The notes under the pieces: generated by a model | Told to the model about the DNA's origin: nothing | Database searches by the model: none | What the model saw: the letters and a program-made list of their open reading frames with translations, nothing else | Translations under genes and position numbers: made by a program | Assembly (NCBI GenBank): GCA_016841485.1 | Contig: JAENZA010000003.1 | Span: 1 to 60,678, forward strand | Direction of reading: 5' to 3' | Length of the DNA: 60,678 nt | DNA from: Methanobacteriota archaeon | Lineage (GTDB): Archaea; Halobacteriota; Methanomicrobia; Methanomicrobiales; Methanomicrobiaceae | Shown here: positions 38,947 through 46,825 of the stretch, in pieces | Numbering within the stretch: position 1 is the first letter of the stretch | Layout of the letters: every line of letters starts with the position of its first letter

Positions 38947-39300
38947 TCAGACCTCAATATCCCTGATGACACTTGAAATTCGTTCACCATCTTTTGTAAT
39001 ATAGATATGCAGACGGTAGTTGCCCGGTTCGAGCTCCACGGGGAATATGACGGTATTATCACCCGGCTCAAGTGTTACCGGCTGGACGATTTTATCCATC
39101 TCCACCTGCCGGTAGCCGGAAAGGTTATAGATCGTTACCTGCATGGCCTTATCCGTCGTCTCTCCGTTGTATGATACCTGAACCGTTATTCCATCCCCGT
39201 CATATGTCGCATCATGAATCGAATACGTCAGGCACCCCGCGCAGAGAGCGATGGCGAGGATTGCAATGAAGATTCCGTATACCGCGAAAGTACGGGACAT
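38947..39300 (-). CDS. Small predicted lipoprotein with Ig-like fold
   Basis: 117 residues. The N-terminal hydrophobic stretch ends in a lipobox (ALCAGC). The rest is beta-rich with a PVTLEPGDNTVIFPVELEPG segment, suggesting an extracytoplasmic beta-sandwich. No family recognised. It starts 61 bases downstream of the GTPase gene and might share its transcript. Confidence 0.72.
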   Translation of the reverse strand: MSRTFAVYGIFIAILAIALCAGCLTYSIHDATYDGDGITVQVSYNGETTDKAMQVTIYNLSGYRQVEMDKIVQPVTLEPGDNTVIFPVELEPGNYRLHIYITKDGERISSVIRDIEV

Positions 39301-39361: not shown

Positions 39362-39841
39362 CTAAAAGTATTCCTCAACAAATCCCTGAAGCGATTCAAA
39401 GGTGTTTTCGCCCGTCAGGGCCGATATCGTGGATGAATACGTCACCGAGGAGATCTCCAGGAATGTGTGGGGGGACGATGATGCCGCATCACATTTGTTG
39501 AGAAATACCGCATACGGAAGATTCTGGCTGGCGAGTGCCGCACAGAGAGAACGGGTCATATCATCAAGGTCACGGGTGGTGTCCACAATAACAATTGCTC
39601 CGTGCATGCCCCGGGATAGAATCTGCCGGACAAATTCAAACCGTTCCTGTCCAGGGGTGCCGAAGAGGTAGACCTTTTTTTCCCCGACCTTTGCTCTTCC
39701 AAAGTCGAGGGCAACGGTGGTGGGAACGTCAGGAGTCCGGGTTTCCACATTGCGTGCCCGAGGATCAATCGATCGGATGAATGATGATTTTCCGGCATTA
39801 TACGCCCCGAATATGACAATTTTGATCTTCTCGGACCCCAT
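39362..39841 (-). CDS. Small Ras-like GTPase (COG2229 type)
   Basis: 159 residues from ATG 39841 (MGSEKIKIV); the ORF goes further, but this ATG lies 25-30 bases from a TATA box and begins the fold. P-loop GAYNAGKSS (12-20), switch I PTTVALDFG, G3 region LFGTPGQERF where the usual Asp of DxxG is Gly (residue 61), and NKCD (115-118). The G3 change is typical of the MglA-related archaeal and bacterial group. Divergent from the ParA gene; probably a polarity switch (inference). Confidence 0.87.
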   Translation of the reverse strand: MGSEKIKIVIFGAYNAGKSSFIRSIDPRARNVETRTPDVPTTVALDFGRAKVGEKKVYLFGTPGQERFEFVRQILSRGMHGAIVIVDTTRDLDDMTRSLCAALASQNLPYAVFLNKCDAASSSPHTFLEISSVTYSSTISALTGENTFESLQGFVEEYF

Positions 39842-39865
39842 CTGTACGAGGATTTGTCGGGTGAA

Positions 39866-39875
39866 GATATAAAAT
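39866..39875 (-). promoter_or_regulatory. TATA box of the GTPase gene
   Basis: ATTTTATATC on the minus strand, 25-34 bases before ATG 39841. No Shine-Dalgarno lies between them, so the transcript is probably leaderless. Confidence 0.5.
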
Positions 39876-39947
39876 TTCCAATCTTTTTTTAAAAAAACCG
39901 CAATCCGGCTCAATCCAAAGGATTTTAGTTCAGAGGAATGCTTAAAA

Positions 39948-39956
39948 TTTATATAA
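39948..39956 (+). promoter_or_regulatory. TATA box of the parA-chemoreceptor operon
   Basis: TTTATATAA centred 31 bases before ATG 39983, with no Shine-Dalgarno between them. It faces away from the GTPase TATA box in the same 141-base gap. Confidence 0.55.
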
Positions 39957-39982
39957 GCAACTCAGGAGACACAGGGTCTATC

Positions 39983-40828
39983 ATGCCGGTCATCACGTTC
40001 GCGCATCACAAAGGGGGGACAGGGAAAACCACCGCCTGTCTGAATATTGGCGGATTTCTGAAGAAAGCCGGAAAAAGGGTGTTAATTGTCGACTGTGACC
40101 CACAGGCGAATGCCACATCCGGACTTGGCGTCAAACCCGGAACCTCCGCTTATGACATCTACGATGTATTCATGTCAGGGACCGAAGGATTCGAAACCGT
40201 CTCCCTGAGAAGTGCCATTCTCAAAACGGACGCAGGACCGGATCTCTGTCCCGCTTCCCTGGACCTTGCAGGGGCAGAACCCTACCTCTACGAACGTGAA
40301 GATCATGTATCGGTCCTGAATAATGCATTGAAAACGGTATCCCGAAGATATGACAGTATCCTCGTCGATACACCGCCGAGTATGGGGCAATTTCTGATCA
40401 ACGGCCTCGTCGCAGCCGACCGTACGGTGGTCACCATGGATACGGGACCCTTTGCGCTCCAGGGCATTGAGAGTCTGAAAACCATTTTTTCCGATATCGG
40501 CGAAAACACCGGCAAAGAGGTTACTCCCGGAATGGCAATTGTGACCAGAGGTAAAGTTCTTCTGGAGGAGATGACGCCTGCAGGAGAGGTCATGGACGGC
40601 CTGAAACGACTGCTGGGCATCTCCGGGAAGAAAAATCTTGAACGAATGAGATTTCTGGAGATCATGGAAGCAATGAACCAGGAGTTTGCACAGGTCTATG
40701 CAATACCCTATGACCCGATGATTCCCGAAGCACAGAAGAGAGGCATACCCATTTCAGAATGCACAGCAGAAAGCCCCGCTGCAACAGAATATGCACAGAT
40801 AGCCAAGGTAATCGGAGGATGGAAATGA
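39983..40828 (+). CDS. ParA/Soj-family ATPase
   Basis: 281 residues from ATG 39983 ([10 protein letters not shown]). Deviant Walker A KGGTGKTT (residues 10-17), [16 protein letters not shown] and [10 protein letters not shown]. It lacks the N-terminal HTH of plasmid ParA. No parB, parS-like repeat or origin is nearby; the next genes are a soluble chemoreceptor and CheR. In bacteria such ParAs (PpfA, ParC) position chemoreceptor clusters, the most likely job here (inference). Confidence 0.9.
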
Positions 40829-40859
40829 CGGGAGCCACAATAAATTCACAGGAGCATGC

Positions 40860-43664
40860 ATGACGGAGGAAACGGTGAGGCCCGGAAGAAAGGCACTTTT
40901 CACCGGAGTGGAGAAGCACAGGCAAACGAATGAAATTTCCGCCGGGGACGACAGGGATTACGACATTGACCGCTTGATTTTTGCCCTTGAAAGCGTTGGT
41001 GCAGGGATTTCGGGTCGTGAAATCTCATCAGGAGTCCGGGACGAAAAACTTCAAGGACTTGAAGCAGCCCTGAATCAAGTCATCGCCCGCCTCTGCACAC
41101 AGTATGAATCGGAAAATTCCGCAACGCTTCGGATACGTGAGGATCATGAACGAGAGATCCAGTCACTTAAGGGTGAGGTGGATCTTTTACATGCTGCACT
41201 CGAAGCAGAAACAATTCGTTCCGGGGATTCTTTGTCCGGCAGCGATACGGAACCGGAGGTGGGTCCGGAAGAGGAAACCGATGCCGCAGTGATGGAAGCG
41301 CTCGAAGCAGCCGTTCAATTGCTGCGGGCAGAACTCGCACGCTCTGAAGAGCAGAATGATGAGCTAAAAAAACAGGCGCTCAGTATCCGTGAAGACCTGA
41401 ATAAAGAAATTATCACCCTTAAAACCAATATTCGGCTCCTCCAAACCGAACTTGGGGCAGAAAAATATCGTGTCGAAGAATTTCCGGCTCACCGGGAAAG
41501 GGCGACCACATCCGCACAGTATGAAAAGAGCGATAATGAGGTGATGGAAGCGCTTGAGGCAGCCGTTCAGTTGCTGCAGGCAGAGCTTGCACGATCCGTA
41601 GATCGTACAGCAGAGCTGGAAAATACGGCGGTACAGGCAGATGCTGATTTCAGGGCACTCCTTGCAGAGAAAAAGACTGCCATTGCCGAAACACAGCGGA
41701 TGCATACAACAGAAAAAGAGCAGCTGGCTGCCCGCATCACCCAAGCTGAAGAAGAGAATGCAATGCTTGAAACCAGAATCAATAGCATTCAGGAAGATAT
41801 GCATCGCGTGAATACCCTCATGAACCAGCACCCGATGCCGATGGTCGTTGTCGACCGATCGTTTCACATTCGTGATGCAAATCCTGCATATGCAGGACTT
41901 ACGGGGGTTCCCCGGGAGCAGCTGCTTCGTAAAAACCTGAGAGACTTCAGGGTTGTCGAACATACGGGACAGGACGTCTCCATAGTTCTCAAAGATAAGA
42001 CCAGGTGCTTTGGAGAGGTTTCCGTCACCCTCCCGTCCGGGACATATACCCTCGAACAATATGCGATTCCCCTGATGGATAACCGACGTCAGGTTGACCG
42101 GATTGCCATCGTATACAACGATATTACCCGGGCGCGAGACGAGAAAAAGGAACTGGAACGAAAGGTGAAGGAAAACGAAATCCTTCGCGTGCGTGCCGAA
42201 ACGATAGTACGGGAAAACCCCCTTCCCATCCTGTATGCTGACACCAATTTCAGAATTACCTACACCAACCCCGCCTACTGTGCGATGAGCGGATACAGCG
42301 AACAGAAACTTCTGAAAATGAATGCACGGGATTTTAAGGTTCTTTCCCAGAAAGGAGAAGGCCTCTCAGAGGTCGTGCGCCGGAAAACACGCTCACACGG
42401 CGAGATAACCGTCAGGCTTCCCGGCGGAATTCGCACCCTTGAACAATACGGCATCCCGATTACCGATATCAACGGGAAACTGGAATATATCCTGATAGTC
42501 TACAACGATATCACTGAAATACGTGAAACAGAAGCTGAAGTGGGCCGCCTGGTGAGGCAGGTGCAGGAAGAGACAGAGAACCTGCGAAAGAGTGCAACGG
42601 ACCTTTCCGATGGCCTGAAAGAACTTGCCTCCGGCAACCTCACCGTCCAGGTCATGGTGGGAGAAGATGACCCCCTCGGTGAACTGAAGGGCTACTTCAA
42701 CACCTCGGTCCGTGAGATGGCAGACCTTCTCCAGCAGGTAGGAGAAAGTGTGCTGCGTGTTGAGGCAACATCAAAGGGACTTGCAGGACGTGCGAATGAA
42801 ATCAGGGGCGCGATGATGAAAATCGCCGTAGGCACCCAGGATTCGAGTGAAACAACCCTGCAACTCGAAAAGGAGATTGAAGCTGTCAGTAATGAAATCT
42901 CTGATCTCTCTGCGTCCATCGAGGAGATTGCAAGCACTTCTCAGGAAGTGAGGAACCAGTCCGAACGCACCGCTGGAGAAGGAAGAACAGGTGCGGAAAT
43001 CGGCGGCGATGCCTCGAACAGGATGGAAAAAGTCGGGACAATTTCAAAGAAGAGCGTTGAGGATATTACGCATCTCAATGAACAGATGCGTCAGATAGAC
43101 CGCATTATCAAGATCATCACCGGCATAGCGGACCAGACAAATCTTCTCGCAATCAATGCGGCGATCGAAGCTGCACGAGCAGGGGAACATGGACGGGGAT
43201 TTGCTGTTGTTGCAGGAGAAATCAGGAACCTCGCCTCTGAATCAAAAGAGGCGGCGGCGACCATCGGTGACCTCCTCGGAACCATACGAAGGGAGAGTTC
43301 AGATACGGCATCCTCTATGCAGGAGGCAGACAATGAAATCACCGAGGGTATCGCAAGGGTTCATGATGTGATATTTGCAATGAACAGTATTGTCGGCTCT
43401 GTTGAAACGGCAGTACATGGCATCACGGAAATTACTCATGCAACCGAGGACCAGGCGACGGCGACAAACCGGCTCATGGAAAACATCGAGCGGTCGGCCC
43501 GGCTGGCAACGAACAATATGGAGCGTATCCAGGACATGGCGACGCGTTCGGAAGAAGTCAGCGCCGCAATAGAAGAAGTAGGCAGCGTTGCACAGGAGCT
43601 TGACGTAATGTCGCAGGACCTCAGGGACCAGATCCGACAGTTCAGGCTCCAAACCACCAGGTGA
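40860..43664 (+). CDS. Soluble methyl-accepting chemotaxis protein with coiled coil and two PAS domains
   Basis: 934 residues and no transmembrane helix. Coiled coil about 60-315 with an internal duplication, PAS about 320-425, PAS about 440-555 (both with the EQY and VYNDIT ends), a HAMP-like region about 570-640, then a signalling helical hairpin whose tip ([20 protein letters not shown], near residue 755) is canonical for CheA/CheW binding. It senses an internal ligand or redox state. No CheW or CheA is in the window. An ATG at 40856 is out of frame. Confidence 0.92.
41289..41597 (+). repeat. Duplicated 57-base segment in the chemoreceptor coiled coil
   Basis: 41289-41345 and 41541-41597 are 57-base copies, 252 bases (84 codons) apart. 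About 8 bases differ, mostly in third positions. They encode [19 protein letters not shown] and [19 protein letters not shown]. This points to an in-frame duplication that lengthened the coiled coil. Confidence 0.8.
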
Positions 43665-44473
43665 TGAAAATGGAACAGGAGGGAGATTTCAGGCCTGTGC
43701 TCAGAATGATTGAATCGGATCTCGGGATTCAGTCTTCAAATTACAAGGAGGATTACCTGAAACGGAGGGTTCAGTCGCGTATGAGGATGACCGGTATGCA
43801 GACCTACCACGATTACCTGCTGATGCTCAGGAGCAATCCTCCTGAGCATGACGCACTCAAAAAGGGCCTTACCATCAATGTGACCAAGTTCTGGCGCGAC
43901 GTTCCTGTTTTTGATGCCATCAGGCGTGACATCATTCCTGAACTCCGGAGACGGAAAAAGACCATCAGGATCTGGAGTGCAGGCTGCGCCACCGGTGAAG
44001 AACCCTACACTCTTGCAATCATAGCACACGAGGCCTCCGTCATGAATAAAGACCTCAAATTCACGATATTTGCTTCCGATATCGATGAGGAAGCCCTCAT
44101 GAAGGCTAAAGAGGGGATCTATCACAGAAAGGCACTGGAAAACCTGAGTGACGCACAGGTCAGAAGACACTTCACCGAACGGACGGACGGCAAATTCGAA
44201 GTAAGACCCCATCTAAGAGCATATGTCAGGTTCTCACGCCATGATCTCATGAGTGGAGACCCGGTAGCATCCCACCTCGACATGGTCCTGTGCAGAAATG
44301 TAACCATCTATTTTACCGAACACCAAAAGGATGAACTTGCGCGGATGTTTGCACCGGCCCTGACACCATGCGGCTATTATGTGATCGGAAAAACCGAATA
44401 CCTAAGCAGGGATTTCGAACGACTCTATGAACCGGTCAATCAGATACAGAAAATATACCGGAAAAAAGCCTGA
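43664..44473 (+). CDS. cheR: Chemotaxis protein methyltransferase CheR
   Basis: 269 residues from ATG 43664, which overlaps the chemoreceptor stop (TGATG). Helical N-domain, then the SAM-binding motif WSAGCATGEEPYTLAI, and the catalytic-domain motif LVLCRNVTIYF-like (MVLCRNVTIYFTEHQKD). It would methylate glutamates of the adjacent receptor; such direct coupling supports a dedicated pair. No cheB in the window. Confidence 0.94.
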   Translation: MKMEQEGDFRPVLRMIESDLGIQSSNYKEDYLKRRVQSRMRMTGMQTYHDYLLMLRSNPPEHDALKKGLTINVTKFWRDVPVFDAIRRDIIPELRRRKKTIRIWSAGCATGEEPYTLAIIAHEASVMNKDLKFTIFASDIDEEALMKAKEGIYHRKALENLSDAQVRRHFTERTDGKFEVRPHLRAYVRFSRHDLMSGDPVASHLDMVLCRNVTIYFTEHQKDELARMFAPALTPCGYYVIGKTEYLSRDFERLYEPVNQIQKIYRKKA

Positions 44474-44482
44474 CCAAACCGG

Positions 44483-44761
44483 TCATAACCGGGACCGGAT
44501 ATTCGCATCCGTTCCTGCATCGGGAGACTCTGGATCAATTTTTGATATTCTGTCCATAACCTCCCGTTTTTTTGCCGCCCCCTTCATCTCATGAGTAATG
44601 ATTGCCAGATTCACCCCGATAACGATAATCACCATCATGAGCCCAATGCCAAGGAGTACTCCTTCAGATGTCAGAAAGAGGGCAAAGAGAAGAAGTACGA
44701 AGGATATGAGGTAAAATATGATCCATGTCCTTGACTGGTGAACATCCATGTATTGATTCAA
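44483..44761 (-). CDS. Small two-helix membrane protein
   Basis: 92 residues: two hydrophobic helices (about 12-33 and 36-56) and a charged, probably cytoplasmic tail (MKGAAKKREVMDRISK). No family recognised. Convergent with cheR. Confidence 0.65.
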   Translation of the reverse strand: MNQYMDVHQSRTWIIFYLISFVLLLFALFLTSEGVLLGIGLMMVIIVIGVNLAIITHEMKGAAKKREVMDRISKIDPESPDAGTDANIRSRL

Positions 44762-44846
44762 CGTTGTGGTTCATTGCCATTAATCGTTCCTTATCGGAAG
44801 GCCCCCCCATACCGCACCGTTCTTGATAAAGCATAAGTTTTCCACG

Positions 44847-45536
44847 ATGAAAGGTACCAGTGTGAAACGGGCGGACATCCTCTCTCTCCTGGCGGCAGTG
44901 GTTATTCTTCTGCTCATTGCCTTTGCGGCACCGGAAATCAGGACATTTCTCGATATCACTGATGACCAGGAATCAGCAGCGTTTACCCCTCCGATATTCC
45001 CGGCGGCGGGGCCGTTACCCCCAAAAACCTTCTCCATCTGGCAGATTCACCTGAATGACGACCTCTCCTCAATCTATGCCAGCGGAACACAAGGTTACCC
45101 TGTACTCGACTTCCCCGGGGACATGAATATTTTCGGCGCCTCTGATGCGCAAAGTCCGCCCATCTGGCCACCGGGTCAAGAACGGCAGTTTGCAGAATTT
45201 ACAGGGATAAGAAGCGGTTTTTCTGAAATTGTGCAGATTCCCTATTCGATATGGAGGGTCCATGCCGACATCAAGGCCCACAACCAGCCGCAGAACTCAC
45301 GGATTGACTGGATCATCGTCGATGCCGGGTCAGGAGAGATTATTACCGGTAATTCAATCGCATACGGGGGGAGCGTGACAAAGAACATACAGGGCTCAGG
45401 AAGTTTTTATTTCCTGGTCAGCAACCAGAACGCTGAATCCTACAGGTTTACCCTCGAGACCACCAGAGCCGAGTTCGGTGACGCTCTCATCGAACCGGAC
45501 ATCAGGCATCTCAAAGATTATCTGAATGCCCTGTAG
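44847..45536 (+). CDS. Membrane-anchored extracytoplasmic protein, unknown
   Basis: 229 residues from ATG 44847; an in-frame TTG at 44823 is less likely. One N-terminal helix (about 15-32), then a soluble outer domain rich in beta segments (SRIDWIIVDAGSGEIITGN, GSGSFYFLVSNQNAESYRF). The end pattern resembles a carbohydrate-binding-like sandwich, but I cannot name it. The neighbour on the other strand is a lipoprotein. Confidence 0.68.
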   Translation: MKGTSVKRADILSLLAAVVILLLIAFAAPEIRTFLDITDDQESAAFTPPIFPAAGPLPPKTFSIWQIHLNDDLSSIYASGTQGYPVLDFPGDMNIFGASDAQSPPIWPPGQERQFAEFTGIRSGFSEIVQIPYSIWRVHADIKAHNQPQNSRIDWIIVDAGSGEIITGNSIAYGGSVTKNIQGSGSFYFLVSNQNAESYRFTLETTRAEFGDALIEPDIRHLKDYLNAL

Positions 45537-45547
45537 GTTGATGATAG

Positions 45548-46168
45548 TTATACGAGCGCCCCCTCGATTGCCGCTTCGAGCCTGCCTGCCCGTTCATCAA
45601 GATTGGCACAGGTAACCTTTGCATCTGCAATATCACCCTGCATAGCGACCGGAACACGTGCCATCGTAATGGCATTCAGGGAGAGAAACGCACCATCCAG
45701 ATACCCGTGGGCCGACCTGAGATCCTCTCGTGCATATGCGAGATCCCTGTTCCAGAGATCGTACTGGTACAATCTTGCATTGTCCTGCGCATCCATGATA
45801 TGGTCGAGTGCTGACTGAATTTCAAGAGCTGCGGAAATAAAAGCGATGCGGCTCTTGATAAGTTCCCGCAGCGCATATGCTTCATCCGGCTCCTCCTCTT
45901 TAGCAGGCGGTATATCGTCAACAGACGCATAGGCATTCTGGAAGTCGACATTTGCTGCAACAAGTTTTGCCTCGATAATGCCGGGAGGATCGATGTTCCA
46001 GTCCACCGAACCGAGACGCAGGTCCCCCTTTTCCATCAGGGAATGGGCCTCGCCGATCTCCTGCCCGGTTGAGGTACATCCAGCTGTTAGTACAACGAGA
46101 GCGACGATGCCTGCCATTATAAGGGTACATATCAGCCGGTTTTCAGTGGACAAAAAGGGGTTTTTCAT
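45548..46168 (-). CDS. Predicted helical lipoprotein
   Basis: 206 residues. Signal peptide with lipobox (VVLTAGC) and then a mostly helical body with no cysteine clusters or enzymatic motif. Probably outer face, membrane bound. No family recognised. Tail to tail with the preceding membrane-anchored protein. Confidence 0.7.
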   Translation of the reverse strand: MKNPFLSTENRLICTLIMAGIVALVVLTAGCTSTGQEIGEAHSLMEKGDLRLGSVDWNIDPPGIIEAKLVAANVDFQNAYASVDDIPPAKEEEPDEAYALRELIKSRIAFISAALEIQSALDHIMDAQDNARLYQYDLWNRDLAYAREDLRSAHGYLDGAFLSLNAITMARVPVAMQGDIADAKVTCANLDERAGRLEAAIEGALV

Positions 46169-46241
46169 TATGCCTGCCTACTCCATATGACGAAAATTAC
46201 CAAAGAAAACTCCTGCTGTAAATTTGAATTAATGGATCGGA

Positions 46242-46457
46242 TTACTCGACTTTTTCGACAATAATTCGAATCCTGTCACCATTCTTCAGGCCATGCCCTT
46301 TGGGGATGTCAATATTAAACCACAGGCCTGACGGATTTTCACGGGTTACTGCCGCAGCATCCGAACTTGTGCCCTGGTTCATCAGGCAGTCCTTCTTTTC
46401 ATCGATATTTGCCACAAATTCAATTTCGGAGATAAACTCCAAAACCATTTCACTCAT
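46242..46457 (-). CDS. Small hypothetical protein downstream of the DUF7123 gene
   Basis: 71 residues from ATG 46457 (MSEMVLEFI). The frame is open back to 46649, but earlier Met/Leu starts would overlap the DUF7123 gene. Neither a Shine-Dalgarno nor a TATA box marks this start, so it is uncertain. The C-terminal half SGLWFNIDIPKGHGLKNGDRIRIIVEKVE looks like a small beta-barrel (AbrB-like or translation-factor-like) segment. Function unknown. Confidence 0.5.
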   Translation of the reverse strand: MSEMVLEFISEIEFVANIDEKKDCLMNQGTSSDAAAVTRENPSGLWFNIDIPKGHGLKNGDRIRIIVEKVE

Positions 46458-46573
46458 ATGAGAGCGTAAAACCTTACACACATTAATGGTTTTGGAATCG
46501 GAGACAGGAAGACAGAAATCGGTTACGAAGTACGGATTAAAAGCCAAAATGAGAATTCTATTCGGAGGTACGC

Positions 46574-46825
46574 TTATATGCCTCTTGGAAGTACTCTCCA
46601 GGTTGTACTGTTTGAATAACTCCACCGGCTGATATCGAGTTCTTCGCATATCTCGGACAGGATTGCCAGATTAGTACCGACTTCTTTGGGAGACAATCCA
46701 AGATCCTTTGCAATGTACTTTGACTTGAAATAATGCTTACCCATTTGGATACCCTGTTTCAGGTAATAGAGAATTTTCCCCTGAGTAGGTGAGTATTCTT
46801 TGTTAAAGGAGGACGAATGGGACAT
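46574..46825 (-). CDS. DUF7123-type small winged-helix protein
   Basis: 83 residues. The pattern KHYFKSKYIAKDLGLSPKEVGTNL followed by SYSNSTTWRV is that of the archaeal DUF7123 family, a compact helical, probably DNA-binding domain. A TATA box and an inverted repeat lie upstream. Its last base (46574) lies 116 bases before the next gene call. Confidence 0.72.
   Translation of the reverse strand: MSHSSSFNKEYSPTQGKILYYLKQGIQMGKHYFKSKYIAKDLGLSPKEVGTNLAILSEICEELDISRWSYSNSTTWRVLPRGI

Follow-up and report, generated by a model that had tools for sequence, protein, structure and literature searches.

A conserved ParA, soluble chemoreceptor and CheR module in Methanomicrobiales: a candidate system for positioning chemosensory arrays through a short receptor tag

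Gene content of the locus

We analyzed a 60,678-nucleotide stretch of archaeal DNA (contig JAENZA010000003.1 of assembly GCA_016841485.1), called the window throughout, and within it a ParA-family ATPase gene that is followed by the genes for a methyl-accepting chemotaxis protein (MCP) with PAS domains and for the receptor methyltransferase CheR. A small GTPase gene diverges from ParA on the other side (Table 1). Three of these four genes, namely ParA, the receptor, which lacks transmembrane (TM) helices, and CheR, constitute a conserved archaeal module. A preliminary description, made from the sequence of this DNA, had reported 141 bases between GTPase and ParA, a 31-base gap between ParA and the receptor, a stop/start overlap between the receptor and CheR, and the absence of TM helices from the receptor, all of which we confirmed.

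Relatives support an ATG start for the GTPase at 39841, the longest open reading frame (ORF) beginning with a TTG at 39913. For ParA, the longest ORF begins at 39938 and homology in alignments begins at M16, which corresponds to 39983. CheR starts at 43661 or 43664 and overlaps the receptor stop at GTGATGA. The receptor contains two PAS domains and an MCP signaling domain. Its best 19-residue hydropathy window scored 1.33, and transmembrane MCPs used as controls reached 2.5-3.1, from which we concluded that it has no TM helix.

The genome itself is fragmented, about 2.4 Mb in size and 91% complete. Its main che cluster, of a standard archaeal kind, encodes CheA, CheB, CheY, CheC, CheD and CheF together with an archaellum-type T2SSF protein, and a CheW gene adjoins the one other MCP gene, on contig C1. 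This second MCP is also free of TM helices. Both receptors detected in this incomplete genome are thus soluble, and the array may accordingly lie entirely in the cytoplasm. No stand-alone CheR other than that of the window was found in the genome; two further CheRs are parts of long ORFs. Among the genes scanned in the main che cluster (L265:6993-12878; CheD, CheC, CheA, CheB and CheY), none encodes CheR.

Table 1. Features of the locus, in window coordinates.
Feature	Position	Strand	Basis or remark
COG2229-like small GTPase; judged a syntenic neighbor, not part of the module	39362..39841	-	small-GTP-binding family
Intergenic region between the divergent GTPase and ParA genes	39842..39982	.	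141 bases; sequence
ParA ATPase, Soj-type fold, orphan	39983..40828	+	Pfam AAA_31 3e-43
Soluble PAS-PAS-MCP chemoreceptor, 934 aa, with ParB-like N-terminal tag	40860..43664	+	Pfam PAS, MCPsignal
N-terminal tag, receptor residues 7-16	40878..40907	+	near-invariant; only where ParA is present
MCP signaling domain, array-forming, with CheA/CheW-binding tip	42999..43502	+	PF00015 match
Stand-alone CheR receptor methyltransferase	43664..44473	+	PF01739 3e-55 and CheR_N

Conservation of the module and the place of the GTPase

To place the locus in its order we used 150 Methanomicrobiales genomes from 35 genera, calling ParA orthologs at E < 1e-20; the Fisher values given below count genomes as independent and leave the kinship between them uncorrected. 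Orthologs of ParA were found in 78 of the 150 genomes and 19 of the 35 genera, nearly always in single copy. CheR is present in each of the 78 ParA-containing genomes, and ParA is missing from each of the 39 that have no CheR (Fisher 2e-16). We then read about 40 neighborhoods across the order. The arrangement ParA-receptor-CheR was kept in nearly all of them and therefore does not reflect chance. The usual run is ParA, one or more array proteins, CheW in most genera, CheR and then two small genes; in the neighborhoods read, the window's genus and genus g6 have no CheW gene between receptor and CheR. Relatives with the same module include Methanoculleus, Methanolinea, Methanoregula and Methanospirillum, which identifies the order as Methanomicrobiales. 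The preliminary description had raised the possibility that the neighborhood is conserved in no relative; for ParA, receptor and CheR, it is conserved across the order.

Beyond CheR, the window (44483-46825) holds small genes for a 92-aa membrane-like protein and for proteins of 237, 135 and 83 aa, which keep their synteny in much of the order; the 83-aa protein contains the highly conserved stretch KSKYIAKDLGLSPKEVGTNLAILSEICEEL. We also observed three ParA-lacking genomes (G059, G097 and G142; L271, L274 and L277) in which the receptor is gone as well and the locus keeps only CheW-CheR.

The preliminary description proposed that all four genes form one polarity system with the GTPase as its switch. 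A close homolog of the GTPase occurs in 85 of the 150 genomes, the divergent adjacency recurs in genera g1, g5, g6 and g8, and genomes with the GTPase tend also to have CheR (p 1e-6) and ParA (p 1e-4), kinship uncorrected. However, of the 56 genomes with both genes, only 11, all from one family, have the GTPase next to ParA, and in the other 45 the two lie apart; the GTPase occurs without ParA in 29 genomes and without CheR in nine. It keeps its place in G103 and G008, where ParA is absent, and still stands beside CheR in G055, G083 and G131, where ParA and the receptor have left the locus. On distribution and synteny we rejected the GTPase as a component of the module, and we regard a four-gene polarity system as very improbable; the grouping of the other three genes stands. 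Given its association with CheR, a minor role of the GTPase in motility is possible. Upstream of ParA, the gene for adenine deaminase and a small one that is lipoprotein-like (38947-39300) are found in many more genomes than the GTPase is.

The receptor tag and its coupling to ParA

The window receptor begins with a short tag, (K/R)PGRKALF, at residues 7-14, and continues with a linker of variable sequence. Neither the tag nor the CheW gene that separates receptor from CheR in most relatives appears in the preliminary description. When the gene after ParA was translated in relatives, the tag began approximately 5 to 20 residues after the start methionine, with Gly conserved in 84 of 84, Arg in 83 of 84, Leu in 84 of 84 and Phe in 82 of 84 sequences. 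Synonymous codons of the tag vary between genomes, which implies that the peptide, not the DNA, is under conservation.

A DNA pattern for PGRKALF was matched in 56 of 78 ParA-containing genomes of the order sample and in none of the 72 that lack ParA (2e-23). The stricter pattern KPGRKALF was matched in 24 of 394 genomes of the phylum, all with ParA. Chance occurrence of the motif was ruled out by a reversed-pattern control, which gave no match in the 150 order genomes or in the 394 phylum genomes. Once the remaining loci were read singly, the tag could be found in 77 of 77 determinable ParA-containing genomes, G109 being left out of the count because its contig ends too early. The remaining genomes carry the variants KLGRKALF, PGRQALF, PGRMALF, TGRKALF, GRRGLF, GRKVLL and GRKTLF. 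At locus L049 our script called the protein tagless through a long start-codon choice, and the tag was visible on reading. In g18 and g26, two genera in which the MCP nearest downstream of ParA is untagged, a later array protein of the same run carries the tag. Some genomes of genus g6 (e.g. G079 and G131) have a tagged receptor and ParA pair at another locus (L062:5638-10621 and L060:6942-19900), with the tag variants TGRKALFQ or IGRKALFE; both loci are present in G079.

Thirteen genomes that lack ParA keep an orthologous receptor (a PAS-CheW protein in one of them) beside CheR with a readable start, and the tag is present in none of these. For instance, within one genus, G107 has ParA and the tag, and G103 has no ParA and a receptor that starts MAAAKKKSTVTG, the flanking genes being the same. 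In both G103 and G008 the receptor, CheW and CheR are still in place and only ParA and the tag are gone. A protein tree of CheR implies at least four changes of ParA state, and the tag follows in four independent pairs. Such coupling, read from sequence, is consistent with a functional link between tag and ParA but not conclusive.

The tag on different array proteins

Tagged PAS-MCP receptors occur in the window and in most genera. Other bearers are PAS-CheW proteins without an MCP domain (G023, G053, G069, G148 and L122) and, in family f10, polyHAMP-MCP proteins; a Methanophagales (ANME-1) genome has the same ParA and tag as f10. In family f32 an MCP starts with the related form RRAGRKVLF. 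Outside the phylum, among the matches listed, an Omnitrophota genome has, next to ParA, an MCP with ten HAMP domains that starts with the related AAKKALFG. Judging by domain content, what the bearers have in common is the tag and a domain that enters chemosensory arrays. Because the tag sits on PAS-MCP, PAS-CheW and polyHAMP-MCP proteins alike, it is the tag that is conserved, not the sensor. The tag as a general trait of the receptor lineage was rejected, as orthologous receptors in genomes without ParA are tagless and CheW- and polyHAMP-type proteins are tagged.

Two further observations concern these proteins. PAS-CheW fusions, an unusual sensor-coupling type, directly follow ParA in several Methanomicrobiales (L053:10197-12584, L052:7588-9453, L057:10325-11992 and L122:10867-13224). 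Among the matches listed, a Trichodesmium metagenome-assembled genome (L125:7711-10850) encodes a ParA with 35% identity and then a protein with an MCP domain that starts MTIPKKRNSGLQVFFED, possibly a distant cyanobacterial form of the tag.

Could the tag bind a partner other than ParA, such as another Che or archaellum protein, with both lost together when a larger function is lost? The coupling is correlational and spans some four independent events, as this explanation would allow. However, G103 and G008 have retained receptor, CheW and CheR in place, and CheW-type proteins bear the tag as well as receptors. We consider a different partner improbable.

We tentatively propose, as a suggestion somewhat short of even odds, that these 7-10 residues act as an interchangeable address label, moved by evolution between receptors and CheW-type coupling proteins in Methanomicrobiales, ANME-1 and a further family of the phylum, with a related form in Omnitrophota, and that the bearer makes a cytoplasmic array the cargo of a dedicated ParA. 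If true, this would define a distinct, archaeal-centered ParA partition lineage that has a peptide code of its own and perhaps a matrix different from that of Soj.

ParA type

ParA has a deviant Walker A motif, and KGGTGKT and DPQANAT are invariant in 28 orthologs. The best PDB matches to the model of an ortholog were Soj and M. xanthus ParA, ranked above MinD, and the archaeal MinD profile MinD_arch (TIGR01969) gave 66 bits against a cut-off of 201.75. With its Soj-type fold and Walker A motif, the protein could in principle be the chromosome-partition Soj of this archaeon, placed among che genes incidentally. However, as the preliminary description had also noted, there is no parB in the window, and we found no match to PF02195 in the whole genome at its 91% completeness. 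In the ParA tree, 22 ParB-linked Soj proteins form one clade (100/100) and the window ParA falls outside it, contrary to the clustering with parB-associated Soj that the preliminary description had considered. Receptor-linked proteins fall to the same side of a branch that is moderately supported (89/88). Furthermore, ParA is absent from all genomes without CheR, and the receptor tag is tied to it. We therefore rejected chromosomal Soj as the identity of this ParA, a role that we find scarcely credible. Across the order sample, PF02195 had any match in 12 of 150 genomes, six of them over the ParB_N cut-off (loci L104-L109).

A predicted ParA-cargo system

ParB starts with an N-terminal peptide, LGRGLxALI, that activates ParA, and this peptide alone suffices together with DNA (PMC12462528). 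More generally, activators of ParA/MinD ATPases are modular, pairing a short, positively charged N-terminus with a domain that binds the cargo, TlpT of R. sphaeroides being a predicted example (PMC7993993). For PpfA, a ParB-like mode of action through the N-terminus of TlpT is reported (PMC3964821). Among the matches listed, about 60 bacterial Soj loci have a ParB that starts LGRGLxALI at the position matching the receptor tag. Taken together, we think it probable that ParA and the soluble receptor are two halves of a ParA-cargo positioning system resembling PpfA/TlpT, in which the array protein itself serves as cargo adaptor; the window receptor is accordingly predicted to be both an array component and the adaptor.

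By analogy with known systems, ParA-ATP dimers would bind an intracellular surface, the nucleoid being the analogous choice. The receptor, CheW and CheA would assemble into a cytoplasmic array displaying many copies of the tag, which may dock on ParA, tether the array and trigger ATP hydrolysis and release, as the ParB N-terminus does on ParA. Repeated cycles of binding and release would move the array and split it between daughter cells, with the tag supplying the function of the absent parB. CheR, whose gene overlaps the receptor gene, would methylate the receptor.

Several points weigh against this proposal. Activation of ParA and positioning of the array are deduced from sequence and analogy, the ParB motif exceeds the tag by two residues, and only four independent gains or losses of ParA could be used, for which a sign test gives p 0.125, the lowest attainable value. 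The arginines in MxDxRT and IPR, which we take to be the DNA-binding residues of Soj, are both replaced in this ParA in our alignment. This leaves the nucleoid unsupported as the ParA surface, although other residues could serve. The ParB pocket has been mapped on M. xanthus ParA (PMC12462528), and the pocket residue Leu152 corresponds, in our own alignment, to an invariant Gln in this order; the equivalent position is leucine in ANME-1, Omnitrophota and most Soj. Lastly, for modeling alone, we joined an orthologous ParA to the start of its receptor by translating across the ParA stop codon; AlphaFold left the tag of this chain disordered (mean pLDDT ~30), but the model was a monomer, in which a site at the dimer edge cannot form, and it is uninformative about binding.

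The replaced arginines would also suit a ParA that binds the tag but mainly serves array assembly, stability or number, positioning being secondary. Precedents for such a role exist: deletion of parC abolishes most CheY foci in H. neapolitanus (Halothiobacillus) (PMC10241942), and loss of MinD2/MinD4 renders CheW diffuse in Haloferax (PMC11588486). Genetic coupling to a ParB-like activator peptide, however, is easier to reconcile with ATP-driven cycles of binding and release than with a static scaffold, and we judge a primarily structural role unlikely, though the least unlikely of the alternatives considered here.

Comparison with known systems

In the literature searched, placement of archaeal arrays has been attributed only to MinD2 and MinD4 of Haloferax (PMC11588486, PMC6509185). 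We found there no system for archaeal chemoreceptor arrays that is of the ParA type and not the MinD type, no ParA-receptor module in methanogens and nothing on array placement and inheritance in methanogens; work beyond these sources could exist. The genome paper of M. hungatei lists 15 soluble MCPs, and its motility section is silent on ParA. Our analysis suggests that in many methane-producing archaea the sensor array itself is a cargo that ParA positions or shares out to daughter cells. A tag that has shifted between receptors and CheW proteins and is still coupled to ParA would be a natural case of ParA acquiring new protein cargo, and it offers a short, testable peptide handle on ParA.

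The module shares with ParABS (Soj/Spo0J) a Soj-type ATPase and, in the receptor tag, a resemblance to the ParB sequence LGRGLxALI. It differs in that no ParB was found and no parS is known, a protein array is the predicted cargo, the ATPase falls outside the ParB-linked clade and one pocket residue is changed. MinD2 and MinD4 of Haloferax volcanii are likewise archaeal ParA/MinD-family ATPases that affect placement of the chemosensory array and archaellum (PMC11588486), but they are MinD-type and, in the literature searched, have no reported N-terminally tagged receptor partner, whereas the ATPase described here is of the Soj/ParA type.

ParC/ParP of Vibrio and other polar flagellates, and ParC of H. 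neapolitanus, similarly use a ParA-family ATPase to place chemotaxis arrays. ParP integrates into arrays via its C-terminus (PMC5706961), and some tagged Methanomicrobiales proteins have a CheW domain instead of an MCP domain. The partner in the window is instead a full receptor, tagged PAS-CheW proteins being found only in other genera; here no polar landmark is known and the arrays are predicted to be cytoplasmic.

PpfA/TlpT of Rhodobacter (Cereibacter) sphaeroides, which we compared through published descriptions, also pairs an orphan ParA gene with an adjacent soluble receptor and a cytoplasmic array, the latter predicted in our case (PMC3964821, PMC7993993). The TlpT N-terminus is thought to stimulate ParA in the manner of ParB, and the window receptor has a positively charged extension that appears to be of the ParB type. 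What distinguishes the present system is that it is archaeal, lacks the Soj DNA-binding arginines and has its own tag, (K/R)PGRKALF, which is also found on CheW-type proteins.

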